DNA of 64,000 nucleotides from Coprinellus micaceus (Eukaryota > Basidiomycota > Agaricomycetes > Agaricales > Psathyrellaceae). Each line of letters begins with the position of its first letter. Position 1 is the first letter of the stretch. The notes under the pieces are model-generated. The model ran no database searches. It was not told where the DNA came from and worked only from the letters and a program-made list of their open reading frames with translations. Below are positions 999 to 26,091 of the stretch, one piece after another. The position numbers and the translations under genes were made by a program. Location: contig OX596334.1 in the NCBI GenBank assembly GCA_951394405.1, positions 930,001 through 994,000 on the forward strand, written 5' to 3'.

Positions 999-1491
999 AT
1001 GGAGTTCACGCCATTTACAAACAGTCACATTCAATTTGTCGACGGGGACCGATTCTACTCCCCAAACAGCATTGTCGACCCTCCCCTACTCCTGAAACCC
1101 CTTGAAGAAGGCCTTCAAAACATTTTCCTCCCACATCGCCGAGGCAAGGAACGCGTTCGGTACAGGGAATACGTGCACCCAAGACTGTGGGTTCTCAAGT
1201 ACGCTTGGGTCCCCTTCGTCCCAGTAAACCCCTACCAGTGGTTCGACAATTGCTCCTATATGGGGAGAGTGCTCTCAAAATATCCGCCACTCGAACATTT
1301 TGCGGACAAGTCGGGGAAGCACCACAGCTGGGCCATCACTCCTGAAAACGAATGGGCACAACTGGAAGCAGACCTGTACAAGGCGATCCGCACTTTGAGC
1401 GTGAAGTATAATATCCCCTGTTCATTACCTTTCCTTCCCAATGCCATCGGTTACCAGGGCATGTACACTCACAAATGCTCCCTCACAACCC
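999..1491 (+). pseudogene. 5' half of a conserved Agaricomycete gene, split by the KDZ element
   Basis: This is the N-terminal part of a protein of unknown function that continues at 26084. The reading frame starts at ATG 999 and runs through residues such as RYREYVHPRLWVLKYAWVP and PFLPNAIGYQGMY. It loses meaning just after CTC ACA ACC (1482-1490), where the transposon begins. At 26084 the same CACAACCC octamer recurs and the frame continues without a shift into ACA ACC CGG CTC and a Trp-rich segment (REWFFVFFGALSYLIA). Proteins of this general type, rich in Trp and Phe, are common orphan genes in Agaricomycetes (from memory; no function known). Translation of the left half ends at a transposon-derived TGA at 1509-1511. 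The left half itself has no internal stops, so the insertion is likely the primary lesion. Confidence 0.75.
1484..1491 (+). repeat. Left target-site duplication CACAACCC
   Basis: This 8-bp copy lies at the exact point where host coding sequence ends. The second copy is at 26084-26091. Codon phase is the same on both sides (ACA ACC), as expected of a staggered-cut duplication. Confidence 0.8.
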
Positions 1492-1526
1492 ACCCTATAA
1501 CCTCCCAATGACCAATTCACTATGAG

Positions 1527-1655
1527 TCAATTGAGTGCCTAGATGACATAAAACTGAAGGGCTAGTATTTCTCAACTGAGCACCGCCCTTGACTCATGGA
1601 ATGTGGCTCAGTTGAGATGCACTCAGGTGAGCCAATCTCCATGAGTCAACAGCCA
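1527..1655. repeat. Left subterminal palindrome cluster (CTCARYTGAG)
   Basis: Within about 130 bp of the left end are TCAATTGAG (1527), CTCAACTGAG (1571), CTCAGTTGAG (1607) and CTCAGGTGAG (1622), interspersed with TGACTCA/TGAGTCA words. The same palindrome family recurs at the right end. Clusters like this are typical of transposase-binding subterminal repeats; that role is inferred. Confidence 0.7.
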
Positions 1656-2079
1656 CCTCTGATCCCAGTACGGCCGGTCCAGAGCCCTGCCAAATAGGGC
1701 AATGTACGGACAACCGAACGACTTCCCATATTTGATCATTTAGCCCGGGACAAACGACCTGGGCCGCCCATCGCAACCCAACATGGCCCTATTAGCGGAT
1801 GAAGGTCGGACGTCACACGTTGGGCGTGGCGATAGAGAGTGCCACCCTTCACAAAAGAGGCATGTGGTCTCCGGGTACAAGCGCCCGAAAGGATCCCGTA
1901 CGCTCGGCGGCCCAACCACGGAGATAACGATATCTTAATTTAGCACTGGGGTGATCTGAGGAAGGGATGGCCATGGATCGAGATCGCGTTAACGTATATA
2001 CAGTAGTGGGGTTTATAGAAGACAATTTGACCAATGAGGGAAGGGTATGAGATCCGTCGATCGAATAGAGACCTCCCCC
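1656..2079. other. Left-end non-coding DNA of the giant element
   Basis: No gene is recognised between the subterminal repeats and the stop codon of the first cargo gene. Short open frames exist on both strands but have no splice continuity or codon structure that I would defend. Confidence 0.4.
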
Positions 2080-2744
2080 TCATCGCTCAGCATCTCGTCG
2101 TTCCTGGCCTCCGGTGGCGGCTAGATCGTCGAGCTGTTCCCTTGAGTATGCCGCCCTTGCAACACCATCCAAGGCCTTTCGGACGAGGTTACGGGTGCGG
2201 ACAAGATTTGCATGGTGGTCGACCACACGGTCATGAAACCACAAGAGGTCATTCAAGTGGGTGTCCACGAATCCTACCGCCACTCGGATAGCTTCCAAAG
2301 AGTGGAAGTTCCAGTGGATCGCCTCTCCAACGGCAACGTGATCACCTGGATGCGAGCCAGAAGCTCGGATGAAACCGTCCGGTCTGGGGGGATTTGAGGT
2401 AATCCTATGAGAATGGGGGATATTGCGGGAACTGTCGTTAGTCGTGTTTGGCGAAGCTGCAGAACCCTCCGGTATTTTTTTGTTGTTGTTGTCGGTGGTG
2501 GCGGCTGGGGCTTGCGGCATTGCTCTCTGGGGTGCAGGCAAGTCCCCGAACGCGAACATGGCAGGGTTCATTTGCGCTGCCCAATTATTCTCCGGTGCAC
2601 CTAAACCGTGAAACGTGAGAGGTCATACCGATCCAATATTCAGATGATCTTACCCTTCTGAGAGGATGACTGCTTTGGAGTTGTGAAGGGGGAATCGAGG
2701 ACAATCGTCCCCTCGGCATCCCGCATCTCGAAATCTAAGAACAT
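2080..2744 (-). CDS. Cargo protein of unknown function, first gene in the element
   Basis: Two exons (2654-2744 and 2080-2600) are joined across a 53-bp GT-AG intron (2601-2653), giving about 203 residues in one clean frame. The N-terminal part (FLDFEMRDAEGTIVLDSPFT) is followed by a low-complexity Ala/Pro/Asn linker and then a helical C-terminal half with many His, Asp and Leu residues (FHSLEAIRVAVGFVDTHLND). The start at 2744 is a choice: coding sequence could extend further upstream to an acceptor at about 2775 (TTGCAG), which would imply another 5' exon. The gene is divergent from the large gene at 3124. No family is recognised. Because it is enclosed by the element, it is probably a cargo or helper protein. 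Confidence 0.55.
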
Positions 2745-3123
2745 ACAGCTTGGGCCAATGTCAAACTCGACCTCTGCAAGACGTGCTTACCGTCATCCCC
2801 GATCCTTTTTTTCTTTCCTAGGCTCATTCTAGAACAGAAAGCAATTGGTGATACGAAGAATTTCTTGCCAGGCGAGGGTCTGTGAGGTGACGAGATCAAC
2901 CAGTGCAAAGGGGAAAGATATTAAATGCTGGCACGCACCAGGGGCGTGACCAGGAAGTGAAAACCGGGAAATAGCCGAACGCATAGACAGGGAAAGAACG
3001 TCCGACCATCCATCGATTATCGGTGTGCTGTCACTGCATTGTGTCCGATACAGACCCTTTGTATATCCATCGTCCACTCAGTATCATACCCCCCAATTGC
3101 TACCCCCAATCGCAACCGTCGCA

Positions 3124-6100
3124 ATGTCAAAGGCCCACACCAACCAGAATCAAAACGATCGAACGAAAGGCATCAGCCTTCAAGAGTTCCGGGCTACAGT
3201 CCCACAGATGGAGAAGCTACTCCTGGAAACTGAAACTTGGACGGCGGGCAAGATAGATCTTGTCAAAGCACGGCGCAAACTCTGCAAACCAGCTGTGAGT
3301 TGGAGTACGGGCTAGGCAGGAGATTTCTAACTAACGAACACCACCCCAGTTCATTATCCTGAAGGGCCAGGTTACCCATGGACGCGACTACGAGCGCACT
3401 CCGGCCCTCAACAAGTGGCTGGAATATTGCCGCGTTAACCCCCAGATCTTCCTCGAGCAAAACCTCGAATTGGACTTGTCGGAGTTCCTCCATGAGGCCT
3501 ACCAGAAGACGTACCGCGCATCCGGTGTCACCATCAGTCAAGATGCGGTCGCCACCGCGCCAAGCGGGGCCACGGACGCGAACGAGCGAAGCAGGGCCGA
3601 CGTGGGCAATCAAGGGGATCCGACCGATCTCACCCCGCTCGTTAACCCCGTCCTCAAAGCTTCCGGTGAGAAGGGGTCCAAAATTAAGACCACTGGGGGC
3701 ACCACCAAGAGTGGAGCTACTGAGAGCGCACCCTCGAACGCCGCTGTGGTGAACGTCCCTCGAGTGAGCACCCCCACTAACGCCCCCGAGCACGGTGGTG
3801 CAGCGAACGCGCCTCAGACCCCCACTATCGTGAAAGTCGCAGTGTCCGGAAAGTTGGAGAGTGTTGGGGACGATGAAGATGCCGAGGGTTCGAACGAGGG
3901 TATGGACCTCGACGATTCTACAGGCCAGGGAGATACCTACGAGGATAAGGGAGGACAGATGGATGTTGAGTTATTGACCGAGACAGATGCGGAGGGAGAG
4001 ACAGAGGTGTCGGAGACGGAGGCCACAGAGGTGTCGGAGACGGAGGCCACAGAGGTGTCGGAGACGGAGGCCACAGAGGTGTCGGAGACGGAGGCCACAG
4101 AGGAGGAAGGGGGCGTCGATGGAGGCGATGACGATGGAGATCTCGAGGGAGGCCCCGATAAAGAAGCTAGCGAGACGGAGGACGGCGCAGATCCCTTCAC
4201 TGGCGGGTTTAGCACCAATGAGCGAGATCGGGCGGGCATCATCGAGAAGAGAGCCCAGGACTTCGAGGAGGGATACGACCGCCAGGAGCAGAAAAGGCGT
4301 AAGCTATACAAGTCGCTGAAGAAGAACATCAAGGAACCTTGTGGTATTATACGCGGACTACCAGGCATGGAGGTACACTCCCCCAAATGCGAACTTTGTA
4401 TGGAGAAGCCTGCCCAGCTCTGCTTTAAGCAGGATCCCACCTCACTCAAGCACGTAGCGCTGTGCTGCTATCCGTGCCGGAAGAAGGGAAAGGGGTGTTC
4501 TTTCAATGTGGCGAGGGGTAAAACAGCTCAAGTCGATGATAGCGGAGATGATGATAAGCGAGCGACCGAGGAGGCTGAAGAAACCGGGCCCCAGAATACG
4601 GAGCGAGTGGTGCTGGCGCAAAATAGCGATGTTAGCTCACGAGACGAGGGGGATGATAGTGACTCAGTGGGAACGAGGCGGATCACGACCGGAGATCGAG
4701 TTATGGGTGGAAGCAAGCAGATGACGACGACCAAGGGCAATAGAGAGAGGGCGAAATCGAAGGTGGGCGAGCGAGAACATGTGCCTAGGACCAAAAAGGG
4801 TGGTAAGGTCGATGGTGGATGTCACGAACCGATGAGCAGTGATGGGGCGGGGAATGAGATGGGAGCGACATCTCTTGGCGGTGGAAGGAAGGAGAAGCAC
4901 GTTCAGACCCGCGTCAAGGCGGAAGTTGATGACCCAAAGCGCGATATCGCTACGCAGGAGTCGGATGTGGACAACGGAGTAGAGAATGGGAATCGCGCCA
5001 GGGGCTCATCTAAGAAGGGAAAGGCCCAAGGTGTGAGATCCCTCCAGCCAGAAGGGACGCCTACCCGGTCAGTGTCTCGTCCCAAGATCAACCCGCCCAG
5101 CAACCCGGAGACGAGTGAAGCGCTTGACGGTGTACCAGCTTCCAGTCGTACCAAGCGAGTTCAGAGCAACAAGGTCCCTGTGGGTGGAGGTCTCAATGGG
5201 AATGGAACTGAGAGAAGGAGTACCCAGGGGGCTGGGAAGAGCGCTCGGGTTCGTTCTACCGTAGGCCAAATTCATTGTTCAGTGTTTGGACAGACACTCA
5301 CGAATACTTCAGACAGCCGGTTCCTCTACGATCGCCAGGGGCAAGCGGCCAGAACTTGCATCCGTAGCGAACGAGATGGAAGGAGACGGCAGACCTAGGG
5401 TGAGCAATGCATCACGTTATTTTGGGAGCGATCGAAACCTTATTTGTATTGATTCTCAGGCGGCTGAGACAACCTTCACCTTTCGTCGAGTCGCTCCTGC
5501 CGGAGTCGACGAAGACGAAACCCCAAGAGCACTGGGACGTCTTACGGACGACCATGTCCGTCTTGAACAGCGAGTGACTATGGTGGATAGCACTCTAAGG
5601 GTATCGAATCGGCAAATCGGCGAACTCGAGGAGCGGCTTGCAGTGACTAATGGTGAGATCGCCGGCCTGACAACAGCGCACAGCCAGGATCGAGGGTTAT
5701 ACCACGACCAGGTTCGAACTCTGGAGGAAAAGATCGACAAGCAGCAAGACAGCCTCCGGATTAGCAATGCCTTCATCGAGACCGTTTCCCAGAGAGTGAA
5801 CACCCTCGAAGCCCATCACAACACTCGCCTTAGCGTCATCAAAGGCCAGCGACCGACGACGTTAACCGCACCCACCTTAGCCCCTGCTGAAGCGTCGGCT
5901 GGTGTCCCAGACATCATTGAGCGCCTAGAGCAGATGCTGAGGTCTCACCGTATCGACGTCCAGGCCGACATTAACGCGGCAATCTCCGGGCTGGAGGCTC
6001 GGATGGAGAAGCTGCTGGCCGCTGCGATCGGACATTCTGGCACAAGCACCCAGGCTGTCGTCCCGCTACCAAGTGTTCCACACAATGGTGCCTCAGCCTC

Positions 6101-7244
6101 AGTGGCCGCCGGGATTTCCTGGAACGACAATCAACACCATCCCCAGCCCATCGCGCCGGGAGGAACAAGTGCCTCGGCTCCACTGCAAGGCCCTTCCCAG
6201 GTCCAGGATTTCCACTCTCTATCGAGTGCTAGAACCACTGGAGGAGTCTTCCCAAACCCACCTCTGTCTGGATCGATCGCTCATACTCGTGGGAACGCGG
6301 TTGCCAACCTTGGGCCACACGGCGCTCGCAGGGTGGCCAATCCTTCCCAATTGGGTCATCGTCAAGCGCATCAGACCGCAGGCCATCGCACGACTGCCGT
6401 ATCCGCTCAACCATCATTGGGAGCCCCTGACCTCGTTCCCAATCCCAATCAACCCCTGCCTCACTCCACCCCGGCTCCCTATCATCATAATAACCGCACC
6501 TCCGTCCAGAGTTGTCGCAACCCCGGTCCGCAGGATCTCCAAGCTCCTTCGATGTTCGTCGCCCATCCTCAATCGAACAGCGGTGTCTTGCCTGCGGGCG
6601 ACGATCCTGCGCCCATCACCAGCTGCCAAGGTGACGCTCCAACGCAATTGGGATACACTCAGGCACTATCCGGCATTCGCCAGCAACATCAATTCGACGC
6701 CAAGGATGTCCCCACTGGCATCTACGACGCGCCTCCGATCACCTTCAGCGACGCCCATGGTGGCTTGGTACAGTCAGGACACAATCTGGCCCAGGGCGTA
6801 TTGCCCTATCCTCCTCCATCTACGGGTCGGCCCTCGAATGGCGAGGACCAGGGTGTAGAGGGTGTAGAGGCGCAGAACGCAGGGAGCCTGGTTGACAGCT
6901 CTTACAATGATTTTGGCGGTATCCCGCCTGGAGGCATGACTGCGTACCTGCAAGCGCCCCTCCCAGAACACGATTCTTCCATCTCGCGAAGGTCCGGCTC
7001 TCGTTCCGGTAGCCACAGGCAGGGAGGGTCCACACTCATACCCCCTACCGCCGCACTATCTTATGCGAGCGCGATAAGTCGAGGGACGAACGAAGCGCTC
7101 TTTGGGAGTGCCCCACCTCGTCCATCAGCTCTGACGTCAGTCGGTGGGATTTCGGTGGGGTGGTCGCATCCCGGCTCTCCTTTGACGGAGGCACCCTCGT
7201 CCAACATGGGCTCTGTGGGACCTTCCAACGCCTCCAACAACTGA
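3124..7244 (+). CDS. 1317-residue acidic, Cys-cluster and coiled-coil cargo protein
   Basis: Four exons (3124-3294, 3350-5260, 5313-5399, 5460-7244) close exactly to 1318 codons with GT-AG introns of 55, 52 and 60 bp. Order of parts: a folded-looking N-terminus (about 1-135, with KWLEYCRVNPQIFLEQNLEL); a long acidic region with four perfect 8-residue repeats of EVSETEAT; a Cys cluster at about residues 322-355 with the pattern CELC...C...CCYPCRKKGKGC, resembling a fungal Zn2Cys6-like or short zinc-binding module; a Lys/Arg-rich linker; a coiled coil at about 750-860; and a Pro/Ser/Gln-rich tail. DNA or chromatin binding is a reasonable inference for such a layout, but nothing catalytic is visible. 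The third intron is a multiple of three, so its retention would not shift the frame. It could also be two genes fused by my splice choice at 5261. Confidence 0.65.
4001..4096 (+). repeat. Four perfect tandem 24-bp units in the coding sequence
   Basis: The unit ACAGAGGTGTCGGAGACGGA plus GGCC repeats four times without a mismatch, encoding four EVSETEAT octapeptides. A partial fifth unit follows. The perfect identity suggests recent slippage or unequal exchange and likely length variation between copies of the element. Confidence 0.9.
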
Positions 7245-7536
7245 AGATCCTAGCTATGCGAGCACTCCTTTCATAGAGGCGGGTAGGTACCGATCGCAAA
7301 CATCGCCGTATTTTTGGGACACGTTCACTTATCGTACGCTACATTGGCCCATGCATACCATTCCTGTAACGCGTCATATAACTGTATCATTTCTTCCCCC
7401 ATTTCATATATATTAACCAAGTGTACGAACCAGGTCAGGGACAGCAGCTTCCAAATGGGGGCTCGATGGACCATAGTCAGGTCTGACAGGCGATCGCGTA
7501 CTCGGTACGTTCCTCGTGCGCACGCAAGTGAAGGGA

Positions 7537-7545
7537 TATATATAA
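7537..7545 (+). promoter_or_regulatory. TATA box for the 7627 gene
   Basis: TATATATAA lies 82 bp before ATG 7627. Similar TATA-to-ATG spacings recur before other small genes of the element (13298, 14278, 18394). Confidence 0.5.
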
Positions 7546-7626
7546 CGAGGGGTGTCTCTCTCCAATCCTACCATACCCCTCTCGACCCAACCTATCTACT
7601 TTATCACATCTCCAACCTCCGCCGAT

Positions 7627-8151
7627 ATGTCCACCGAACCCCCCAAGACGCACGCCGAGCTGGTGAAGATAGCGGATGAACGCGCTGCACTTCTCTCGGG
7701 CTTGAACGCAACCCTGATGGCAGAGCTGGATGTGGTGGTCGCCCGGAACAAGAAGTTGTCCCAAGATTGGCAGGAGAGCATTGCCCAACAAATTGCTGCG
7801 AGGGAGGATAACGTAAGGTTGCTGGCGGAGACTCAGGAATGCTGGAAACAGCATGATGCGCTGCTTGCGAAGCATACGGTCCTGCTGGAGGAAATAGTCA
7901 CCATTCGAGAACAAGCTGAAGAGATGACTGGGCGCCATGCCGCTAAAGCCAGCAATATGGAGGCTTTGGTTGAAACGTTGCAGCAACAGTCGCTCATCCT
8001 CGATGGGCACATTAATTCCACCGTCGCGCTTATGAAGACCTTGAGCGAGAAGGACGAGGCCCTTGACCGAAGCATCCAGCGTATCGAAGAACGCCAGGAG
8101 GAGCAAGCCAAGGCCCTCGCGGCCTGCAAGTGCCAGAAGAGCGAGGCGTGA
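7627..8151 (+). CDS. Small coiled-coil cargo protein A
   Basis: Single-exon gene of 174 codons, opening at ATG 7627 (MSTEPPKTHAELVKIADE). An earlier in-frame start at 7552 lies only a few bases after the TATA box, so 7627 is preferred. Almost the whole product is predicted helix with heptad-like spacing of Leu and Ala, and it ends in a short Cys-containing tail (ACKCQKSEA). No enzymatic motif is visible. It belongs to a series of similar-sized, unrelated-looking coiled-coil genes in the element (9006, 9794, 13298, 14278), which suggests structural or adaptor roles in transposition or regulation; this is inferred only. Confidence 0.6.
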   Translation: MSTEPPKTHAELVKIADERAALLSGLNATLMAELDVVVARNKKLSQDWQESIAQQIAAREDNVRLLAETQECWKQHDALLAKHTVLLEEIVTIREQAEEMTGRHAAKASNMEALVETLQQQSLILDGHINSTVALMKTLSEKDEALDRSIQRIEERQEEQAKALAACKCQKSEA

Positions 8152-8440
8152 CCATTGTAAGTACACCTAGACCTTCGCTCCAATGTGACCCAGACTGAGT
8201 CACCCAAACCCATTAGACGGACCACCTGGCACTTTGACGTGCGATTCGGATTCTAGTCCTTATGCATAGTGTTCCATCAGCCTTAGGCCTAGCCCCTGTA
8301 CCTATCTACACATCTCCTTTGAAACCGAGTATTTGGCGAACCATGAATGTGCTCCATGAGCGGGCCCTTGGATGTATCAAGTGTCACCGACCCTGGGCAG
8401 TGTCGGGGGTATGAGATGTCACCCTCGATCGCCATGCAGC

Positions 8441-8909
8441 TAAGGCATGTCACGAGTCCGGGCTACCTGTGGGTACTTGCAGGTAGACCTGTGGGAATAC
8501 CCGTGGGAAACCTGACCCGCAAGTCCAGGTAACCCGTGGGAACAAACCTGTACAGATCCAGGTCGCAGCCTTAAAACCACAGGTACTTGCATGGTGCAAA
8601 CATCTGGGCCAGATGTCACCACTGGAAATTATATTGGGTCTGTATGACTGCATTAGTGAGTTGTGTGATGTAGTTTAGGTGTATGTACAATGTTAGATAC
8701 CATTTTTAGGGGGTGTACACTAGTATTTGCCCTATAATATGCTTGGCACCTGCACTATTACCTGTGACCTGACCTGTGACAACCTGGACTCACAGGTACA
8801 GGTGACCCGTGGGAAAATACCTGCACAGATCCAGGTATGGCATAATTTTCTGCAGGTACCTGCCCCACAGATCCAGGTCAACCTGTGGGTGCACTTGTGA
8901 CATGCCTTA
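8441..8909. mobile_element. 469-bp non-autonomous hAT-like element nested in the KDZ element
   Basis: The terminal inverted repeats begin TAAGGCATGTCAC at both ends, with similarity continuing to about 18 bp. The element is flanked by a perfect 8-bp duplication, CATGCAGC, at 8433-8440 and 8910-8917. The interior is built of opposed ACCTGTGGG / CCCACAGGT words near both ends and has no open reading frame worth calling. An 8-bp duplication with a TIR starting TAAGG fits the hAT superfamily. It lies 96 bp before ATG 9006, so it may influence that gene's promoter. Confidence 0.8.
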
Positions 8910-9005
8910 CATGCAGCACACACGCGTCTCAACAAGGCGACCCTACACTCCATAAATTGTGGAGCTGTAGGCACCCAATTATACCTTAACATTTTCGTAC
9001 ATCCC

Positions 9006-9464
9006 ATGGCAGCTAACGACCTCCACTCAAACGACGCCACCTCGTGCGACACTCTGTCACCCACCTCTTCACCGCTTTCTACTCTATCCGCCACGGAATC
9101 TGAGCTCATTGCCAGTCTTGCCGACAACAACGACGAGACGGCATCTTCCATCCAGCAATCCCTTATGGATACGATTGCGGAGCAGGCACGAGAGATCGCG
9201 CGCCTTCAAATTACTATTGCTCAGTACCAGCTTAGAGAGACATTAGAGAATCGCCAATCGACGCAACACTTCGACAGTATTTCCACCCTCCTTGGACAAC
9301 TTGTGAACGCCGTCGAACGCATGGCCGAGGCTGAAGTGGGAGCATCCCCCGAGGAAATGGGGCGGGTGGTGGACATGTTTATTAAGTCGAGGCAGGCGAT
9401 CGCAGAGTTGGCAGGGTTGGAGGCTAAGGACATGGTCGTTTGGGCCACCAAGCCCATGGTTTGA
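9006..9464 (+). CDS. Small coiled-coil cargo protein B
   Basis: Single-exon gene of 152 residues starting at ATG 9006. A Ser/Thr/Asp-rich N-terminus (about 1-45) is followed by continuous helix with a coiled-coil pattern (TIAEQAREIARLQITIAQYQ) and a second helical segment ending WATKPMV. No catalytic motif. The nested hAT-like element ends 96 bp upstream, which separates this gene from its original upstream DNA. Function unknown. Confidence 0.6.
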   Translation: MAANDLHSNDATSCDTLSPTSSPLSTLSATESELIASLADNNDETASSIQQSLMDTIAEQAREIARLQITIAQYQLRETLENRQSTQHFDSISTLLGQLVNAVERMAEAEVGASPEEMGRVVDMFIKSRQAIAELAGLEAKDMVVWATKPMV

Positions 9465-9793
9465 CGTTGCCACCGGGAGACCTTGATGGAGACGACAGGG
9501 ATAGTGGGTATGGAATTTCTATACCCTGACCCCTTGGTTTGGACGCTGAACATCACTTTCCAGGTGTAGTTGGATTCGCGTATTGGCACCGTAGATTATA
9601 TCCCGTTATGGCAATGGACATGTGCATGATCAGAAATTGACAGCGGCGACAAAGACGGCCCAAATGCGGTAAGAGGACCATCGTCGAACGGCGAGGGAGG
9701 TAAAGAACGGGGAGCGATCGGCATGGGTCACAAAATGAAATAAAACCCTAGATATGGGGCTTCTTGTCCACCCCCCACTCGACGCTCACTACT

Positions 9794-10192
9794 ATGTTGC
9801 AAGCTCGCCTCCAACCCATCGAAGACATGGCGCGGACCCTGATCGTCCTCCAGGGTCTCCGTGACAACATCCTGAAGCTGAGCAAACAAACTAAGGACCA
9901 CTTCATCAAGGTCAACGGGGATATACAGGAACAGGGGGAAAGGGTTGTGATGCTTATGGAACACGCGGCAGGTGTGGGGAGGGAGATCAATAGGCTCACG
10001 ACGGAGAACGCCAAACTGACGGCATCCATTCACTCCTTGGAGGAGAAGCTCAAGGAGAAGGAAGCGCAGATTGTGGGGTTAACCAGGGCTGTAGAGCAGC
10101 TAAACCTTCGCATTCCCCAGGTATGCGAGCGCATACTTTGCATTTTGCAACACAACTCTCATTGCAACACAACTCTCATTGCAACACAGTAA
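9794..10192 (+). CDS. Small coiled-coil cargo protein C
   Basis: Opens at ATG 9794 (MLQARLQPIEDMARTL). The product is essentially all helix, with a strong coiled coil (REINRLTTENAKLTASIHSL). The coding end is ambiguous. A donor GTATGC after RIPQ at about 10122 and an acceptor ending CACAG at about 10190 would join directly to TAA, giving a 109-residue protein. Reading through the putative intron adds a short repetitive tail to 10192. The 17-bp unit AACTCTCATTGCAACAC is duplicated inside that interval. Function unknown; grouped with the other coiled-coil cargo genes by size and position. Confidence 0.5.
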   Translation: MLQARLQPIEDMARTLIVLQGLRDNILKLSKQTKDHFIKVNGDIQEQGERVVMLMEHAAGVGREINRLTTENAKLTASIHSLEEKLKEKEAQIVGLTRAVEQLNLRIPQVCERILCILQHNSHCNTTLIATQ

Positions 10193-15248: not shown

Positions 15249-18241
15249 TCACTTTCTACCCCTCAGTCTCGGCTTTGCATGGGGAGCCTCTTCCCCGAAC
15301 CGTACCGCTTTTTTGGTTGGGTGTTTGGCAGACGTAGGAAGATGTCGTGCTGCTGCTTCAAGGAGGAGCTGATCCTGAGCTGACACCTTGACAGCACTTG
15401 GCCCTGCCTTTGGTGGTGGAGTAGTGTTCCCGTCGTCCGCACCGCTCGTCGCCTCATCACCTGTGTCGTTCGCCGCTTTTGACGTGTTCCCCCGTCGTCC
15501 ACCATGGCCCCTACGGCCTGTGGACTTACCCCGACCAAGAGATCTAGCTGGTTCGTGCTCCTCGCCTCCCTCTTTGGCTCCCTGCTTGACCGCGTGCTCC
15601 CCCCCTTCAAGACCTGGTCGATTCACGTCGGTATCAGCCGCTATTGGGGCAATGGACAGAGTTGGACCCTGAGGCGCACGATCTTCCCCAATCTCTCTGT
15701 CGTCCACCTCCATCCTGTCGCTCTCGGTGGCCTTGCCCTTGAGCCCCCTTTCGGCTGCCCTAGCTCTTGCTCCATTCAGCCTTGCTTGTCGAATCTGCTC
15801 CCGCCTTTGCTCCGCCGATACCTCGACTTCTGGCTCCTCCTGGTCGTCCCGCCCCCACTCTTTGAATTCCCGGGTCTCGGCCGCGTTGGGGTATTCAACA
15901 GCAGGCCTATACCTTTCCTGTGGGTTCCTCTTCCCTGCTCTCCCAGTTCCCGCTCCCTGAGGCTCTGCTAGATCAATGTCCATTGCCGATCCCTCCCTGC
16001 TGGGTGTCCTCAAAGTCAGATCCTTCGTAGCCCCTACTAGCCTCTCGGTGAGAGGGGTATCATGTCGAGGTCAAAGAACGCGAACAGAATCGTCACCTGC
16101 AAATTGAGACAATCAAATTTAAAGGACCATCGTTTATGTGGGCGATCGAAAGTGTTGAGCGTACCATCATTGTCAACCTCACTCTTACCAGGACTCTCCT
16201 CACCATCCGAACTGGACTCCACAACAGTCCTCCTCCCTTTCCCTTTCTTCGGGGCCATTAGAACATTCACGGAGCCAGATGGGTGAGCGGGTTCAGTGAC
16301 CGGAGATGGGGGTGATTGTACCAGTTGAGGCGGAAGTTGTGATGTCGACTTGGTTCCATGTGCTGGGGAAGTAATCGATACCTGAAGCTCATCCGTTTCC
16401 TTGCACGGAGCGCGAGCGCTCTTCATTGCGATGGACGCTGATTGCCTCGCTGTCATTTTTGGCATGGAGCGGGCGGCGCTATCATTTGGCTTTCGCGCCT
16501 TCGGCTTTGCTTTCGATTTCTTCCTTTTTCCTGCTCCCTTCTTCTTCGACTTCTCATCGTCGCTGGAGTCTGCATGCACCTCGCGACGTGGTTCGTGAGA
16601 TACCCATTCCTCTCCCCCCACCCAATAGCTGTGGAATTGGAAAGGTATCTCGCCCCGTTTCTGGCGAGCGTACCAGGCCTCAAGGATCATCCTGCACTTC
16701 GGCACTCCGTAACCCCCTGGATCACCGATTGGCCAATCCTTGGGCCAATACTCCTCGCCCACCCAGTTGTACCACTTGGCCGCCATCTCCTTCCAAGGGG
16801 GTGTGGAGTCCTTGTCGGTCACGGGGAGATCTCTGGCGGCAGCTAGCCAAAAGGGGTGTCAGCAGCGCTCGGGGTGAAAGGACTAATGGCACTAACCGTA
16901 GTCGTGGCGCATAATTGATCGAATGAGGTCAGGGAAGTACCGATGAGCTTTCACATTTGCCGGGAGTGTACCAATGCTAGGGACAATGGGCTCCCGGAAC
17001 TCATTGAGCTCCACCCAGATGGGTTCACCGCACTTTCTCGGTCGCTTCATTGGCCCTTCTGTATCCTTCCCATCCATCCCCTCTTCTGGCAACGTCCGCC
17101 GCACAAATCCCGCCCAATGATTATCCAGGTCCACCTTCTCCAAATATGCCCTTTCCGCTTGCTTGAACGAGATACCGCTGCCGATCTGATTGTTGAAGTC
17201 TAGGCTGACTGTAGTGGCCGCCGGTGACATGAAAGAAATTGGGGTGAGTTTGAAATAAATCATCTATACAATACGCTGGAGTGCTTACATGCCAAGTGTT
17301 CGCCCGTGGTGTCTTGAAAGGTAACAAGGAAATGTAACCGTACGCCCATTTGTCGGTAAATCTCGTCCGCGAATTGGTGTATCACGCGGCCGCTTTCCTT
17401 CTCGGCAAGGCTATACATTTCCCGGAATCAGCACTGTGGGTCCACGTGTAGATGCAAAGGGGTACGAACCGTTGGCGTTCCTCCATGCTTGGGCCCCTCT
17501 CTCTCCAAACTAGAGCCTTTGCTTCGTACGACGAGCGTTCTTTGTCTGTCAGAGCTATCCATTCTGCCGTCACCGCACGCTGAAAGAAGTGGAATAAACT
17601 TGGCTTCTTCCCTGGTCTCACGTCCGGCGTTGGCTCGTCGACCAGATCCAGATTGACGGTGCCTTCACCATTCTCAGTACTCGCCGTGCCGGTTTCCAGC
17701 TCAAAGAGCTTTCTCTGGGTATCCTGGATACGACTGATATTCTCTTTATAGAACACCATGCGCCTGTTCCAATGAATGGTCCAGTGCATGGGTCCATGCC
17801 GGCTCCTTGCCCTCTGGCTGTACCAGAGCTGGACGTTCTGTGTTTCGACCGAGCATCAGGTACAATTCATTTTGTTAGAAGAGCTGCCTGACTCACTTCA
17901 TACATTGCCGATATCTGTGCCTTGCTCGGGTCTCAACCAGCCTTCTGCATCTTCTTGAGAAAATAGTCGCCAGTGGCTTGGGCCATTTCGCGGCGTTGAT
18001 TTGCTGGGGCATAGCGGTAGAGGTCCCTTTGTTCGTTGAGATAGGCGAGTTGCTTGGGTGTGAAGCGTGCATCGAGTTGCTTCTGGTCCGCTAGCTTATC
18101 CAGCAGCTCACGCTCGATCGGTTCGTCGGAGAAGGGGTCTTCCTCGGCGGATGAAGAACCCCTTGAATGCACGTCGTCTTGGTCCGCTTGAGATGGAGAA
18201 CGCGGTGCTTTACTGGGAATATTCTCGGGGAGAGGCGGCAT
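15249..18241 (-). CDS. Transposon accessory protein, multi-exon, Lys-rich and putatively DNA-binding
   Basis: Start at ATG 18241 (MPPLPENIPSKAPRSPSQAD). Exon order by reading: an N-terminal helical module (FTPKQLAYLNEQRDLYRYAP) that after an intron continues NVQLWYSQRARSRHG, reminiscent of a homeodomain-like helix-turn-helix third helix; a helical segment with PSLFHFFQRAVTAEWIALTD; a compact domain with SFKQAERAYLEKVDLDNHWA and EPIWVELNEF; a Trp/Tyr-rich segment (KEMAAKWYNWVGEEYWPKDW); then a long Lys/Ser/Glu-rich disordered tail with many basic stretches. Exact splice sites are only approximate between exons. It is divergent from the KDZ transposase with only 152 bp between start codons, so the two probably share a control region. 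Proteins of this kind often flank transposase genes in Agaricomycetes (from memory); the helix-turn-helix reading is an inference. Confidence 0.55.
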
Positions 18242-18393
18242 AATCTTGTTGGAAGATAGGAGCAACTATAGGGTATGAGAGGTACGACTCGAAAACGTGT
18301 ATATATAGGGGATGGAGGTAGGCTAATTTCCGTAGCCCTAGGGAGAGTCAGCAACCCAGTTGCTACATTATCCCGATCACCCCTCATTGCATC
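18242..18393. promoter_or_regulatory. Bidirectional promoter of transposase and accessory gene
   Basis: Only 152 bp separate the two divergent start codons. TATATATAG at 18300-18308 serves the plus-strand transposase, 86 bp before its ATG. No equally good TATA box is seen in the minus direction. Confidence 0.45.
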
Positions 18394-21300
18394 ATGCCCA
18401 CCCCCATCCGAATCAATAAGAATCGGGTCGCCACCGCAAGATACGTTGAGAAGAAATCGAAATACGGCTTCAGTGGGAACGTGAAGAAGAACCGAAACAC
18501 CGTCCACAGCGCACCCAAGACTTCGATCGCAACAACCGATACACCTACCCCTACTCCCCCCATAGCCCCAGGCAAGCGTCCGCGATTGGACGAGGATGTG
18601 AAACCCCAAATAATCAACATAGATATCGACATGGATGACAATACTGGTCCGGATCTAGATCCTTTCGACGATTGGACTGAAGCGGACGCTTATCGTGAAG
18701 AGGTTCTGACCCGTCATACTGGAAAAACAAGCCTGGGGAAGGTCCGTACACTCGGTCATTTGGCTTATTGGGGATTCTGATTTCATTTCAACTAGACATC
18801 GCACAAAGTAATGAAAGAATGGAAGGCCTCGAAGGTCCTTCCCTATCTCGATCGCATTCTCCAAGCCGAGGACCGCCTACGCTCTGTGTGCGACTCCTGT
18901 CACTGTCAGGAAGGGCTTTGGAAATGCTTAGACTGTATTCCCAACCCTATCTCTTGTACGGATTGCTGCCGTTCGACCCACCACCAGCACCCACTGCACC
19001 GCATCGAGCGATGGAATGGCACACACTGGCGCCCTGCCTGGCTCTGGCATGTTGGATCGGTCATCTGCCTTGGACATGGCGGCGCTCCGTGCCCCAAATA
19101 CAATGCCTCTCTTGAGAGCTTGCAGTCCCGCCTAGTATCCGTCAACAACGTCGATCACTTAGAGTCGGACAATACCTTCGGAGAGAAGCCCAAATCCACC
19201 TCCAGTCTTGGCCTCGGTCGGGTCATTGTGATCGTTCATATCAATGGGTTCCATCACCTCCCCCTCTTCCCATGCTGGTGCAAGGAAACTCAAACCGACG
19301 ACCTTGACTTTCTAGACGTCGGGCTCTACCCTGCTTCTCTAAAGAATGTCTCCACGGTCTTCACCTTCGATCTCCTCAACAAGTTCCATCTCCTGAAGGT
19401 TCACTCTCATATGTCGACCGAGCACTTTGCGGCGCTGCTCCGGCGCTTCACCAATTTTGCCTTCCCTGACAAATCATTGGTGAGTGGCCATGCTTTCCCC
19501 GGGAATGTTATACCGACTTTGTCACCACGTGTAGGATAGGAGAAGGGAGCTAGCGAGGGTGTGGGCCCAGTGGAATCATTTGATGGAGTTGAGAAAGGAG
19601 GGTTTTGCGCACAACCGACGGGGCGACCGCCCTGGATCCAGGGATTTGGCTTTATTCTGTGCCGCGTGCCCCCAACCTTCCATCAACCTACCCAACGACT
19701 GGATGGAGGACATTCGAGGGTATGCGTTTCAATTATGTATACTCACAAACACCGTCTAATCGTTTCACGACCATTATTAGGTGGCTTTACCGCCGCTACC
19801 TTGTGGTTGACGGCAACTTCGTTCTTGATCATCTGGTATCGAACGGGACGCGGGACAGTGTAGGGCTTGGGGGGGGAGCTGCCTTTACAGCCGAGCCCAG
19901 GAGATATGCAAAGCATTTGAAGGGGGCGAAGGAGCCCACTGAGGTGAGTTATTTGGACTATCTGTGTTCCATACCAGACATCCCACCTATCCTGGGAGGG
20001 GGCAGCGATGCCGGCCCGGCCATCGAGGCAATGACGTAGAAGCGTGTGATTTAGGCGCCCATGACCCTTCATCTTCCCGGTCGAGATCTCCCCATGTATG
20101 TTTCCCATTTATCGATAATAATGCCTTCAACCCAGACATCAACATGTGCCGAGCTTCGTGCGGTCTCTGAAAAGAATAAGTTGAAGAAGGGTTATGACGC
20201 TACCGGGGTTGTGGCGGTCGCATGCGCCCGTCATGGGTGCTTCGTGCCTGGAAGCGTGGTCGATATGCAGAAAGGCGAACGGTGAGTTGAACTACCTGCC
20301 ATTTCGCATGCCATTAAAACCTTCTAACTACTTTGGGATACTTGAACCCATAGTCATGTCAACGTCGACTATGCATTATCCCAGGCCCTGAAAACCACAC
20401 ATGCGGGCGCCACGAGTGGAATCCGGTTAGCATACGATATCAATTGTCAGTATTCCATCAACCTCGAGACCTGGATGAAGAGCTCGCCGTACCTTTCACT
20501 TCCATCGGACATGCCCCTGGAGTTCGTTATTGGTTTGTTCCACGTTCATGGTCACAAGGACGAATGCCTCGCCCGTTTCACGCCGACCTTTCTCCCAGGC
20601 AGTGGCGTCACGAGCGGAGAGATAATTGAGTCTCTCTGGTCGACGCTAAACGGTGCTGCTCCGATAACGCGCAATATGACCCCTTCAAACCGATGGGGGA
20701 TGATTGACGCCTGTATTCAGGATAGCAATCTGAGGAAAAACCAGGGGTTGGGTACGACAGCGATACACCTGTGCTGCTAATATATGTGTCTAACGTGATG
20801 ACTTCCAGTATCTTATCTCGATCGCCAACTAAAGCTCGCACGCAAAGAGAAGACTGCAGCCGACAAGTTCTTCTTACTTCTGAACGAGGCGACGGAAGAC
20901 AGGGACAGAGGGGTTTGGCAAGATCAGATGGATGCCGCTAACACTGCCCGGGGTGGACATAATACCTCAATGGACATTTACAACTTCCACATTCCACAGG
21001 GTAAGTCACTGATACCTGTCACTGCGGTTCCATGGCTATTCTGACACTCATCCAGTGGAACCGAAAAAGGCCGTCCAGGTGAGACTGATGGACGCTGAGA
21101 AACAGAAGAAAAAGGAGGACAAGAAGAGCAAGCGCCGGCTCGGGTACGCCAACTGGGTTGCAGATGGGATCTCGATCCAAGAATCACAGTGTGCCTTGCA
21201 GTTCATTTGGTCGGGGCTAGTCCTAACTCCTCCCTTGTTCCAGAATCTCCCTGTGAGCGGCGTACTGAAAAGCCCATTCCCCATCTCTCACCGAATCAGT

Positions 21301-22386
21301 GGACCTTGCCCGAAAGTCTGAAGCCCTTGCAAACCGCGTGGTCGCGTTCCACAAGGAGGGGAAGAGACTATTCCCAGATAATGATCTGGTGTCTCATGAG
21401 GGAACACAGTGGGAGAGTGATGAGGTGGAGGTGTGTGTGTGCGAAGAGGAGTGTGGATGCATGGAGTTCGAGCAACTACCGCTTGGGCGCGCGGTTTTCG
21501 ATACTACGACTGATGATCTCGCACCGCTTCCCCTCTCTTCCAGCTTTGAACCCCTTCCGGAGGGCTGGGAAGAAACTGCCGAGATCGAGGTTAGTATGAG
21601 GGTGGCCCAGGCAGAGGAAGCGCTCGAAGAGCTGAGAGGTGAGATTGCGCACAAGTCCTGCTTGTATCGTGGGAAGCGCCAAATGGCGGGGGGCGGGCGG
21701 GGGGTAACCAGAAGCTACGACGAAATCAATGCTGTCGAGGAGAAGATGCGATCGCAAGTCAAGATCTACGAAAGCACGCGCTGGGCACTCGAGCGTCTGG
21801 GTGTATCTGAAAAGTACTCCCAATTCAGGTCTCTATCAAGGGCCGATACCAAGGCCGTTACAGCGGTCTTCGACCCTAACAATCCGGGAGAGAGGAATAC
21901 CGAATTGTCGTGGATCTGGACAATGAACGTGCAAATGGGTGGGACACACGGCTCAGACTACCTAGAAGAACGTGAGTTTTCCACTCAATGTCGAACGAGC
22001 ATGGCTGATTCTGTTCGACTTCTTTGAAAGTGCGTCGGGTAAATTGGATCAGGGCACGTTCTAGGAAGGATAGATGGACCGAGGAAGTCCTTCTGCTGGA
22101 ATCGGAGATGAAATGGTATGTCAACTTCATGACATTCCAGAAGAACAGGGCAGAGAAGTGGGTGATGCTGGACTTGGGCGGTGGACATAAGGCGTTCGCC
22201 CTCCGCCACGCGGATAGCTGGAGGCGACTTGGCCTGGAAGGAGTTAATCGGTTTTTTGGTGCCCCAGATCCGCCACAGAGCTTTGTGAAACCCGAGCCGG
22301 ATGAGGATGTGAAGATGGTGTTGGATGTCTCTGGCCGGGATGACTCTGAGAATAGTGAATATGACCTAAACGAGCGCATTGAGTAG
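18394..22386 (+). CDS. KDZ-family transposase with N-terminal Cys-rich module
   Basis: Starts at ATG 18394 and spans about eleven exons with 50-70 bp introns. Diagnostic parts in order: a disordered basic N-terminus; a Cys/His cluster (SVCDSCHCQEGLWKCLDC, then CTDCCRSTHHQHPLHRIERW) matching the CxC2-like module of fungal KDZ transposases; the GLYPASLKNVSTVFTFDLL segment; CAACPQPSINLPNDW; YRRYLVVDGNF; GVVAVACARHGCF and the QKGER motif; then the catalytic-region hallmarks YDINCQY, GLFHVHGHKDEC and GSGVTSGEIIESLWS; and a C-terminal helical region with VNWIRARSRKDRWTEEVLLL. KDZ transposases use an RNase H-like fold with acidic residues; the Asp in YDINCQY and the Glu in the GSGV-SGEIIE motif are the likely catalytic residues. 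No stops interrupt the exons, so it looks intact. It catalyses excision and insertion of the surrounding element. Confidence 0.9.
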
Positions 22387-22442
22387 TTAAAGCATAATTC
22401 TGAAGTTGAATGTAATCAGCCCCCATCCCACAAACGGTCACC

Positions 22443-23284
22443 ATGCCCATCTTGTCTCGCGAAGTAGTCCTTGCAGTCCGACAGCTCGACGCAGGGAATT
22501 ACCAGGGTCTGGTCAATTACTCGGGTAGCAGGTGCTTGGCCGCCGCGACCACCTGTTGCGTTGGGATGAGTATGATGGAGGGCGCCACTGTAGAAGCTAT
22601 GGCCGAAGCAATGTGCAACGAGATAGTGAGTAATCATCACCCTTCCAAACACAATTCGCCTACTTACTGGAGTTTCCATCACTCGATTTATATGGCGACC
22701 GCCTCTAGGCTGTTGGAAACCTGCTCGTGGGACTTGGGTTCATGGTCCATGGGCATCGACTCCACGCACCCTTATCCCTGAAAGCGCTTACCCCTTTGAT
22801 GGTCGAGGGACGACTTGCCGATTTTGTAAGCTTGAAAACGGCGGTTACCCAGAAGCTGGGGGGTGGTGACGACCTCCTCCATTACTATGCCGGTAACTGG
22901 TGGACCAATTTTTCGACCGCCGCTGCGCCGTTCCCTCAAGAGGCGATCGACATCATAAGATTCTGGAGACAGCAGTATGCATCACTGCCTGTTCCCGCTC
23001 CGCTCCAGCCCCCCGGGCAACTAAACGTCAGCGTACTGTCTGGTATGGAGCTTTTCGAGGCATATGCTGTGGGTGAGGACACCCTGAGGTTGATGGACAA
23101 GGACATCAAAGGGTGCCTGGAGAACATGAGCAACCTCACTGGGAGCATCAAGTCGATCAAGTCTCTGAAAGCAGAGCTCCTTGTTCTCGAAGAGAGGGTG
23201 GTCGCAGAGGTGACGGCTAGGGAAGCAGCGAAGGCACAGGCGGATGGTGCAAGGCGTGCAGTCGAGACTCGCGAGTCGAGTTAG
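22443..23284 (+). CDS. Cargo protein F, downstream of the transposase
   Basis: Two exons (22443-22625 and 22709-23284) joined by an 83-bp GT-AG intron close in frame to 252 residues. The N-terminal part has a small-residue and Cys-rich hydrophobic stretch (RCLAAATTCCVGMSMMEG), followed after the intron by a hydrophobic segment (AVGNLLVGLGFMVHG) that could be membrane-associated. A Trp-rich middle (YAGNWWTNFSTAAAPFPQEA) leads to a C-terminal coiled coil. It begins 57 bp after the transposase stop and is followed 113 bp later by a second gene of similar layout (23397). Function unknown. Confidence 0.6.
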
Positions 23285-23396
23285 TCGGCCGAGAATGTGT
23301 GGCCATGCATTGTGGCTACCTGGCGATCGCCCTGGTTCACCCTTGATTGATGATCGCCGCCATGTACTTGATATAAACACCAGACCGTTCAATCTC

Positions 23397-24094
23397 ATGG
23401 ACTCTATTTCCCCTCCATCCCCCACTGTTCTTGCAAAGATGCCGGCGCCGCTTTGGTCCGGGGTCTATTGGGTTTCATTCATGTCATTTCTGACACAGCG
23501 AAGGGAATCATTTCTTCAATTTCTTGAAGAAGGTCACGTGCGAAGAGATTTCAACCAGGGCTACATTGACCTGTTTTTCAACGAGATGGTAGAGATATCC
23601 TTTTTCGTTGATCCTCTTCGCTTACTTCGCATCATTAGGCCATAGCTTTCAGAGCCCAGGGAATCCATGGATCGCTATGGGCGTTCGACAATACCTTCTA
23701 CAGTCGATCGCTGACTTCGATCTGCATGAAGTTGGGAGCCTACTGCGACACAGACCAGGACATTTGGATAGCACTCACATCGGGCTGCTTTCGCATGTCC
23801 CAGCCTTCGGGCGCGTCGCACGTGGGGGAGTGGTGGCTGCCCTCAAGAGATGTCCCAACGTTCGACTCGGTTGTAGAGGAGTGGGAGGGTTTCATGTTGT
23901 GGACAGCCGGTCAGACGAGGTCTTCCTTGGACAAGGAGATAACAGATGAAGTTACCTCAGCCTTGGAGGTCATTGCCAATCAAGTGGAGAGCGCGATGGA
24001 TGCAGCAATGGCTTCCATCAAACTGACAGAGGGTTCCTTAGATCGCATCAGCGCGACCTCGGTTCGGTGGGATAGGGTCAGCGGTCGAACATAG
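23397..24094 (+). CDS. Cargo protein G
   Basis: Two exons (23397-23588 and 23639-24094) with a 50-bp intron close in frame to 215 residues. The N-terminus is aromatic (SGVYWVSFMSFLTQRRESF). After the intron comes a conserved-looking globular part (GSLWAFDNTFYSRSLTSICM, GEWWLPSRDVPTFDSVVEEW) and a helical C-terminus. Its length and its hydrophobic-then-helical order resemble the preceding gene, but I cannot show homology. It converges on the dioxygenase gene with only 58 bp between stop codons. Confidence 0.6.
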
Positions 24095-24152
24095 CGGCCA
24101 TTTTCGTTGCTCTGCATCCATGTACCTATCATTTGTATTTTGGCTACGGGGT

Positions 24153-25531
24153 CTACTTGGGCGAATCTAATCGACAGTCTGTGGGGAGCCTAATCTGGAG
24201 CGCGTCGGTCAGATCGTTGACGCGGGGAGGCGGAAGCTCTGCACAGTGTGGGAGGACACCGTATCCAATGTTTGGTCGAAAAAAGCTTGCGATACAGACT
24301 CTATCCCCATCCGCCTCCGATACTCCATGCTGTACTAAATGTCCTGGAATGAGGACGACGGTCGAGGGGTTGTAAACAAGATGCGAGCCGAAGAGTGGAA
24401 CATCAAATCTGCAGTTCGTGTATCGGCCAAAGGTGGCGAGCAAATTGAGGAGCATTTTCCCTCCCCTGGTATCCCGGTGGAGCGGCGTCTCTCGGTTCGA
24501 GATCAGGGCGAATGCGGTGAAGGGACTGGACCAATCTTCGAAGAGCCGTTCGAAATGTCGTGGTTGCTGAACTTCAATCCGGCCCTCCCGAATCTCCTTT
24601 AGGACCTGGGTTTGGAGATCATAAAGGTGGGGATGGACAAGGGAGAGAATGACGCCAATCAAGGCGTTGGTATCGCACTCGGACGCAATAAATTCTGGGC
24701 CACCGCCGAAGGGACGCAGCCCAGCAGAGGGTGCAGGTGGTTTGTGGTTGTGGGGCTTAGGAAGATATTAACGTCAGTGGCAAGCTAAATAATATCACAA
24801 AGCGAACTCACTCCCCAGCCTTGATTATACCAGCAAATGCTCATTACGACATTCCCGGGTGTTAACACACTATCGGGGAGCGGACGAAACACGGTGTCAT
24901 CGTTTCGCCAATTGTTTCTCCTACCCCTCCTTAGCCTCCGTTTGGTCCCGCTCTCAACAAGCACGGACTTAGGAGCGCGTGATAACGCCTTGACCGATTC
25001 GTAGACATGTTCCTATGTATGCCATTCATTATAGGTCCGATCTACCAGAAATTTGGGTACTCACCGATCGCTCTTGGGTAAACATATTTGGGAAGAACCA
25101 CCCTACAACGCGTTCGCCCATATCAACAAACGCCGTTGGTTTGGTCAGGAGCCTGAGCGCCCCTTGTTCCATGTTCTCCGGGAAAGGCCCCGGGAAGCGG
25201 GATCGCAAGACCTCGTCCTTGTTTTTTGGGGTAGACTCTAGGACCCTTTGAATGTCTTCGATTCAGAATGGAAGCCTGACTATAGAAAATAGTGATTTGT
25301 CAGCGTGAGACGACCGACACGGGCCCAGGAGTTCTTACCCTGGTTCTGCAATGCTTGGTGAAAACGGTCCACAATTATTTCCAGTTCGATTTGCATGGCT
25401 GGGGGCACATTGATGGGCACAGGGGCAACGGGGCCACCCATTCGCTCACATAGAAACTCCTTGGCGTGCTTGGAGTACAACTCGGTTCGCTGAAGTCCAG
25501 GAGGGAGAGTCATTGTCGCGCGATTCGACAT
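24153..25531 (-). CDS. TET/JBP-type 2-oxoglutarate/Fe(II) dioxygenase
   Basis: Four exons (25339-25531, 25065-25255, 24812-25012, 24153-24755) close exactly to 395 residues with GT-AG introns. The C-terminal exon carries the double-stranded beta-helix signature: the iron-binding HxD as LHRDTRGG (His about 288, Asp about 290), the distal His in LVQHGVSEADGD (about 338) and the 2-oxoglutarate-binding Arg about nine residues later (DRVCIASFFRP, Arg about 347). This arrangement, with a Gly-Gly after HxD and the His-Gly-V pattern, matches the fungal TET/JBP group known to travel with KDZ transposons. Members oxidise 5-methylcytosine in DNA or related bases in the nucleus. All metal and cosubstrate residues are present, so activity is plausible. 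The acceptor of exon 2 (CGAAG) is weak but is the only one that keeps frame. Confidence 0.85.
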
Positions 25532-25905
25532 TGGAAGCGGGATGTAACGGCACAAGGTTGAATGAACAATAACGCCACATATTCATTCTGCCCATGTTGT
25601 CGCGTGGTTGGTGAGTCACGCGGACAACCAAGGAAATGCGACCCAGCGAGCCAGCGGTTGTAGTGCCGCTCGTTATGCGGACAGACCAACCAGGCGCACG
25701 AAGAGTTGTACTACGAAGGCTATGGGACTACTTCTGGTGATGTACATAGGTTGCAATACATGGCACAAATACATATTGCATCCGACATTCGGTCGCGCAC
25801 CGGTGCACGCGATTGACGGCCGCGCGAAAGTCACTCGGGGAATGCCTTTTGTGGAAGGCAAGTGCGGAATACCCGACACATGTCAGCAGCACCTCTCAAT
25901 TAACC
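25532..25905. other. Right-end non-coding DNA of the element
   Basis: No gene is supported here; short frames on both strands lack coding character. This is the upstream region of the dioxygenase gene and the approach to the right subterminal repeats. Confidence 0.4.
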
Positions 25906-26049
25906 CATGTTAGTTGAGTCATTGGTTTTCTCAACTGAGCTATGCGGTAATCAAGGTCTCACTTGAGCCATGGGGTCTAGTGCATCACAGATATGCTCAG
26001 TTGAGCACAAGTGATCAATATTGTTGGTCATTAAGGGTCCTCAATTGGG
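25906..26049. repeat. Right subterminal palindrome cluster (CTCARYTGAG)
   Basis: CTCAACTGAG (25930), CTCACTTGAG (25958), CTCAGTTGAG (25996) and CTCAATTGGG (26040) lie within about 180 bp of the right end, with TTGAGTC words between. The set mirrors the left cluster at 1527-1655. Confidence 0.7.
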
Positions 26050-26083
26050 TCAAGGCCCATGGAGATTCAAGCTGAATGCCCTG

Positions 26084-26091
26084 CACAACCC
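26084..26091 (+). repeat. Right target-site duplication CACAACCC
   Basis: Second copy of the 8-bp duplication, at the point where host coding sequence resumes; partner at 1484-1491. Confidence 0.8.

Follow-up and report, generated by a model that had tools for sequence, protein, structure and literature searches.

A large multi-gene KDZ-superfamily transposon, very probably of Kyakuja type, in a repeated gene of Coprinellus micaceus

What is the 24.6-kb block that interrupts a gene on contig OX596334.1 of the agaric Coprinellus micaceus, and do the genes inside it belong to a mobile element or to its host? The block lies in a stretch of 64,000 bp (assembly GCA_951394405.1, positions 930,001 to 994,000), here called the window and numbered from its first base. 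The genome searched comprises 50.3 Mb in 17 contigs (C1, C2 and so on), in which the window is C1:930001-994000. Our comparisons of the block with its other copies and with sites that lack it indicate that it is very probably one copy of a large, multi-gene DNA transposon of the KDZ superfamily, of the Kyakuja type. The element family is a well-defined new member of this known superfamily. The copy in the window has decayed, a point absent from an earlier, preliminary description of this DNA that was made from its letters.

Empty sites, ends and copies

Two paralogous sites in the same genome lack the block. Each (C7:3543069-3543080 and C2:1728604-1728615) contains a single CACAACCC, the 8-mer that stands on both sides of the block in the window, at 1484-1491 and 26084-26091. 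The left flank matches C7:3542989-3543080 and C2:1728528-1728615, up to window position 1491, and the right flank matches C7:3543069-3543289 and C2:1728604-1728824. The flanks abut at both empty sites, with left/right identities of 94.7/96.5% (C7) and 91.5/92.9% (C2). Because the flanks are continuous at two empty paralogous sites, insertion is proven. The preliminary description had anticipated such a site, with a single CACAACCC and the sequence missing as one block, and this is what we observe, at paralogues within one genome rather than at alleles of another strain. The gene is a single open frame of 858 codons at the C7 empty site (856 at C2), and the codon phase is equal on both sides of the insertion, in agreement with the continuity of the split protein described earlier.

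The interrupted gene had been called a host gene. It is interrupted, as claimed; it belongs to a multi-copy family with 18 genome matches, for which no Pfam match was found, and the window copy carries an in-frame stop to the right of the insertion. Of 17 typed loci of the family, seven (the insertion in the window included) have a KDZ domain no more than 28 kb away. The gene may itself be a mobile-element gene or part of another KDZ element, a reading for which these data are suggestive only. Some family members adjoin KDZ domains and homologues of g1, the leftmost gene of the element (Table 1). A near-perfect palindrome of 78 bp (29435-29512) lies directly to the right of the interrupted gene.

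The 8-mer by itself would be little proof of insertion, because the window holds five copies of it where 2.6 are expected by chance. Base-level ends come instead from comparison across copies, which places the window element at 1491-26083 (24,593 bp). Four other copies of 22.3-23.2 kb have the same ends and the same gene order, and we call these five the A elements. Copies ending elsewhere, which the preliminary description had named as grounds for refutation, were thus not what the comparison gave. A pattern search of the genome returned 11 left ends, five of them in A elements and six more in what we named subfamily B. Over 1.5 kb, five of the B left ends resemble one another (77-100%); the sixth, at C1:4602490, shares only ~150 bp at the DNA level. 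Both ends were read in eight elements (five A, two B elements on C7 and C13, and C2:4535815-4559985); the elements on C4 and at C1:4602490 were covered from the left end only. A perfect 7-bp duplication flanks seven of the eight, at targets that differ from one another. The next base also matches in two of these seven (the window element and the C12 copy), which is the level expected by chance, and the other five match at 7 bp only. An 8-bp duplication, as first described, is thus ruled out in favor of the 7-mer CACAACC, and the C at 1491 becomes the first base of the element. All 11 left ends have C at this position, in a search whose pattern specifies C and tolerates two mismatches. Of the boundary given earlier, 1492-26083, the right end holds and the left end shifts by one base.

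The element begins with CA and ends with TG. We found no terminal inverted repeat between the two ends of the window element, and neither end motif recurs within it. A candidate internal right end near 26038 (ACCCT..AATGACCAA, partly like the left end) was rejected; five copies and the empty sites place the end at GCCCTG. The ends are further marked by the palindrome TCARYTGA, which occurs four to six times per copy in the six copies compared and at least once at each end of every copy. All sites lie in the terminal 300 bp in five of the six, and in the B element on C7 five of six do. The binomial P for this clustering ranges from 5e-7 to 9e-9 per copy, values that are not independent since the copies are related. 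Outside the element, the palindrome occurs once in 37.9 kb (the window from 26101 on). By inference from this arrangement, the palindromes are putative binding sites of the transposase.

The window copy is collinear with the C12 copy over its full length, insertions and deletions aside. It is longer than C12 because of two nested insertions, the second of which has a duplication, GCGTTATG, that could be 9 bp; the older unit is therefore ~22.3 kb. Further differences from C12 are 72, 17 and 31 bp extra and 31 and 24 bp missing. The claim of a complete 24.6-kb unit thus stands for completeness, with a length that includes later insertions. Pairs of B copies are 99.85-100% identical in the stretches compared, which points to recent spread. 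No short non-autonomous derivatives were seen, and a KDZ domain lies 10-19 kb downstream of each of the 11 left ends. Plasmid records gave no match to 1484-9000.

Table 1. Coordinates of the element, its genes and flanks in the window, and of the copies with matching duplications elsewhere in the genome.
Feature	Position	Strand	Remarks
Interrupted repeated gene, left part	999..1490	+	from flank comparison
Left 7-bp target duplication CACAACC	1484..1490	+	read in sequence
Whole element	1491..26083	+	CACCCTATAACC...GAATGCCCTG; ends common to C12, C1, C7 and C13 copies; empty sites C7, C2
Left subterminal TCARYTGA palindromes	1527..1616	.	sites 1527, 1572, 1608; putative transposase binding sites
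g1	2083..2622 (main exon)	-	antisense, near left end; no Pfam match; kept in 5/5 compared copies
g2	3124..5398	+	first exon and main exon (3335-5398); no Pfam match; conserved between copies
g3	5409..7244	+	coiled-coil-like; Pfam matches sub-threshold only
g4	7546..8151 (frame bounds)	+	small coiled-coil-like protein
Nested insertion 1	8433..8909	.	477 bp, one copy of 8-bp duplication CATGCAGC included; ends TAAGGCATGTCAC inverted; absent from C12
g5	8910..9464	+	small coiled-coil-like protein
g6	9752..10192 (frame bounds)	+	small coiled-coil-like protein
g7	10598..11236 (frame bounds)	-	no Pfam match; not found in C13 or C7b
Nested insertion 2	11233..12961	.	1,729 bp, one copy of duplication GCGTTATG included; inverted ends near CTGTACTTTACACTCCCCCAT; absent from C12
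g8	13289..13924 (frame bounds)	+	coiled-coil-like; not found in C13 or C7b
g9	14197..14724 (frame bounds)	+	coiled-coil-like
g10	15249..18265	-	several exons; sub-threshold resemblance to homeodomain and HMG-box; one or more premature stops in window copy
g11, CxC2 and KDZ transposase	18322..22386	+	about ten exons; two premature stops in window copy
g12	22443..23284	+	directly downstream of transposase; no Pfam match
g13	23418..24094	+	two exons; nothing above a Pfam cut-off
g14, TET/JBP dioxygenase	24153..25582	-	four exons
Right subterminal TCARYTGA palindromes	25931..26004	.	sites 25931, 25997; putative transposase binding sites
Right 7-bp target duplication CACAACC	26084..26090	+	read in sequence
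Interrupted repeated gene, right part	26084..28050 (end approximate)	+	in-frame stop at 27273-27275
A copy C12	C12:217168-239489	-	22,322 bp; CCCGGAG on both sides
A copy C1b	C1:1220666-1242993		22,328 bp; GCTTCTC on both sides
A copy C7	C7:2474788-2497207		22,420 bp; CTGGGCA on both sides
A copy C13	C13:1970739-1993953		23,215 bp; CCGACGT on both sides
B element C7b	C7:2636936-2661432		24,497 bp; ACTTTCT on both sides
B element C13	C13:1561050-1588787		27,738 bp; AACGAAT on both sides

Genes of the element

We count 14 genes outside the nested insertions, where the preliminary description had about thirteen; the TET/JBP gene it named is among them. Gene frames were picked by conservation between copies, and the models, drawn from sequence alone, are approximate. 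The transposase, g11, combines a CxC2 domain (PF18803, E-value 5.6e-18) with a KDZ domain (PF18758, 1e-27). The g14 product matches Pfam Tet_JBP (1.3e-19) and is related to the Coprinopsis enzyme CcTet (7vpn, 9.9e-32). Pfam matches of g10 are sub-threshold, to homeodomains (0.035 and 0.097) and HMG-boxes (0.0014 to 0.027), and we regard it as a putative DNA-binding gene. The coiled-coil-like genes appear to be of similar type, nothing beyond that being claimed, and the Pfam matches of the several small proteins among them stay under the threshold. That they form one paralogous family was considered and rejected; hhalign supports just the pairs g5-B1, g5-B4 and B1-B3, and coiled coils match spuriously.

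The gene set recurs between copies. With tblastn (E-value 1e-3), all 14 genes were found in each of the C12, C1b and C7 copies, 12 in C13 and eight in C7b. In C7b, g5 lies at the opposite end, the match to g2 is weak (5e-4), and other coiled-coil-like frames of subfamily B are present. Between the window copy and C1b, the ratio of nonsynonymous to synonymous change (dN/dS, NG86) ranges from 0.14 for the transposase to 0.45 for g7, in frames that take in some non-coding margin. By this measure, all 14 genes are under purifying selection. The corresponding ratios against C12 span 0 to 1.11 and are based on few changes.

Are these genes cargo, as the preliminary description had it? We searched the genome for g1, g2, g9 and g12, and scored the best candidates, so that the counts are lower bounds: at least 21 matches for g12, 19 for g1, nine for g9 and seven for g2. 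Each of the 49 listed matches of g1, g9 and g12 has a KDZ domain within 28 kb, a zone that makes up 6.4% of the genome, and for 20 of the 21 listed for g12 the distance is no more than 6 kb. The seven listed for g2 all fall in the five A elements. Because the listed matches occur only near KDZ transposases, the four genes look like genes of the element rather than captured host cargo, and their conservation between copies likewise argues for dropping that label.

Downstream of each of the six B left ends there are two TET matches (one of the 12 is under the Pfam cut-off). In C7b, the only B element read through, the second TET (~17785-18312 of the element) has His in place of the Asp of the HxD motif and is perhaps inactive or changed. 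About 5 kb to the left of the window element (C1:926043-926589) there is another, separate piece of a TET gene, broken by a stop and with no KDZ domain within 20 kb; it is perhaps the remainder of an older element. Elsewhere in the window, two NACHT/NPHP3_N ATPase genes (35146-36558 and 56782-58596) share ~67% DNA identity over 1.2 kb.

Decay of the window copy

The window copy and C12 are 99% identical, and their 215 differing aligned sites comprise 198 transitions and 17 transversions. In a three-way alignment with C1b, C12 has CpG where the window reads TpG or CpA at 133 of the differences, 34 go the opposite way, and 48 are of other kinds. When polarized by C1b, 126 of the window-side CpG differences resolve into 90 that changed in the window, 20 that changed in C12 and 16 undecided. 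For the 34 reverse differences, the corresponding numbers are eight in the window, 19 in C12 and seven undecided. The window has thereby lost ~9% of 1,485 aligned CpG sites of C12. CpG sites are likewise lost in the interrupted gene, in its part to the right of the element: 55 in the window and two at C7 when compared with the C7 paralogue (22 other differences), and 64 in the window and 10 at C2 when compared with the C2 paralogue (85 other). Grouped by the base in front of the CpG, the rates of loss are 0.036 after A, 0.043 after C, 0.045 after G and 0.053 after T. There is no strong preference, which speaks against TCG-biased hypermutation of the kind seen in rusts.

Three stops, two in the transposase and one in g10, occur in the window copy and in none of C12, C1b, C7 and C13. 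A second stop in g10, absent from C12, may be intronic. Stops were also flagged for g5, g8 and TET, and these are located within a nested insertion, ahead of the gene or inside a predicted intron. Wherever the frames of the window copy are open, C12 is free of stops; g2 of C1b contains two. The HxD motif is present in TET of the window and sister copies. At position 337 of CcTET, reported to be essential for the activity of that enzyme on 5-methylcytosine (PMC12730594), the window copy has Asn in place of the Asp seen in C12, C1b, C7 and C13 and in the first TET of C7b. Since the window copy stands alone among those read, a shift in TET specificity as a family trait was rejected. Given the stops in the transposase and g10 and the changed TET residue, the window copy is probably no longer autonomous.

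Transposition, alternatives and known systems

By analogy with its superfamily, the CxC2-KDZ transposase would bind the ends of the element, probably at the TCARYTGA palindromes, excise it and join it to a staggered target, where repair would produce the 7-bp duplication. The TET/JBP enzyme may oxidize 5-methylcytosine and so counter silencing of the element. The other conserved proteins may likewise have roles for the element itself, such as in expression or in the pairing of ends 22-28 kb apart. The window copy would have landed in the repeated gene and then taken the two small nested insertions. Apparent deamination of methylated cytosine would have cost it CpG sites, giving the stops in the transposase and g10 and the altered TET residue.

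Some observations sit less well with the Kyakuja assignment and with this account. Twelve of the 14 genes lack any domain above the Pfam cut-off to support a function, and it is from the ends, the length of the duplication and the domains, rather than from a transposase tree, that the Kyakuja label is taken. A copy that bears TET has lost CpG together with its flank, a misfit with simple self-protection. Association of TET and KDZ is incomplete in both directions: 22 of 24 TET loci lie within 20 kb of a KDZ locus and two do not, and a TET is that close to 22 of the 62 KDZ loci and not to the other 40. Finally, the eighth element (C2:4535815-4559985) has unlike flanks, and its right 7-mer, GCGTAGG, is the left flank of another copy on C2. 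The crossed flanks would be accounted for by exchange or recombination of near-identical copies or by a misjoin. The other C2 copy (left end 5156726) is near-identical to the eighth element, and its right part reads N.

This crossed pair with its masked stretch, and the fact that the interrupted gene is repeated, could be taken to mean that the block arose by segmental duplication or as an assembly artefact rather than by transposition. Different 7-bp duplications at different targets, the empty sites, the lack of an internal second end motif and collinearity with C12 apart from insertions and deletions make this hardly credible. A KDZ element of Zisupton or Dileera type, with an 8-bp duplication, would fit CACAACCC at the window site, and 8 bp fits C12 too. 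Such an assignment is nonetheless highly improbable: the five elements that match at 7 bp only speak against the 8-bp duplication of both types, and the terminal inverted repeats of Zisupton are missing.

Alternatively, the block could be a Starship-like mobilizer with host genes as passengers. Starships of the Pezizomycotina are giant elements with many genes, a tyrosine-recombinase captain and variable host cargo. Size and gene number are alike in the two cases, and the A copies share just eight of 14 genes with C7b, so that gene content is partly exchangeable. The window element, however, has a CxC2-KDZ transposase and a conserved gene set instead, and no tyrosine-recombinase captain was found among the element frames given to Pfam, a subset of all frames. 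With the listed matches of g1, g9 and g12 near KDZ domains, those of g2 in A elements, and signs of purifying selection in every gene, we judge a Starship-like origin very unlikely.

A multi-gene Kyakuja transposon accordingly remains our preferred reading. One could envision, more broadly, that some Kyakuja are autonomous transposons of giant size (22-28 kb) whose own genes, at least 14, are vertically maintained; the set would comprise a transposase cassette (g11-g12-g13-TET), an antisense gene at the left end, a homeodomain/HMG-like factor and an exchangeable coiled-coil-like array. They would represent a large-element architecture in fungi that is unrelated to Starships, in which length is mostly self-serving and CpG decay proceeds despite a demethylase-like gene of the element's own. 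We hold this generalization tentatively, as possible and slightly on the doubtful side. For a very large KDZ element, the ends are now fixed to the base, empty sites are identified and the conserved genes are listed, which makes the ends and the transposase testable, and TET genes are placed inside a defined mobile unit in the C. micaceus genome. The ~99% identical pair, with 133 against 34 CpG losses, offers a natural experiment on whether TET encoded by a transposon shields its own copy; at the window locus such protection did not occur, or no longer does.

In Marasmius, KDZ and Plavaka elements are described (PMC8290104). Pleurotus ostreatus has 36 KDZ transposons, of which the intact ones are all reported to be preceded by a CxC2 region (PMC7641404), the combination seen here. 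The Cryptococcus elements KDZ1, KDZ2 and KDZ3 also have a KDZ transposase with a cysteine cluster; they differ in being shorter (9.2-11 kb), in having terminal inverted repeats of 139-241 bp and duplications of 8 bp (KDZ1) or 4-8 bp, and in carrying CxC1 rather than CxC2 (PMC12810828). The closest likeness is to the TET-bearing Kyakuja of Agaricomycetes (Kojima, 2025; PMC12730594), a paper that also associates 46 AG-type TET genes of Coprinopsis cinerea with Kyakuja. The suggestion that a defined, complete giant unit may not have been described is partly overtaken by this work, which published complete TET-bearing Kyakuja with 7-bp duplications in December 2025. Lengths and further genes of those Kyakuja are placed in its supplement (Table S1); for the family reported here we give 22-28 kb and 14 genes. 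Like those elements, which are described with 7-bp duplications, 5'-CA..TG-3' ends, no terminal inverted repeats and an AG-type TET, the family reported here combines a 7-bp duplication, CA..TG ends without terminal inverted repeats, a KDZ transposase and a TET close to CcTET that has the AG-type features (HxD, the distal His and Asp at position 337, the last replaced by Asn in the window copy itself).

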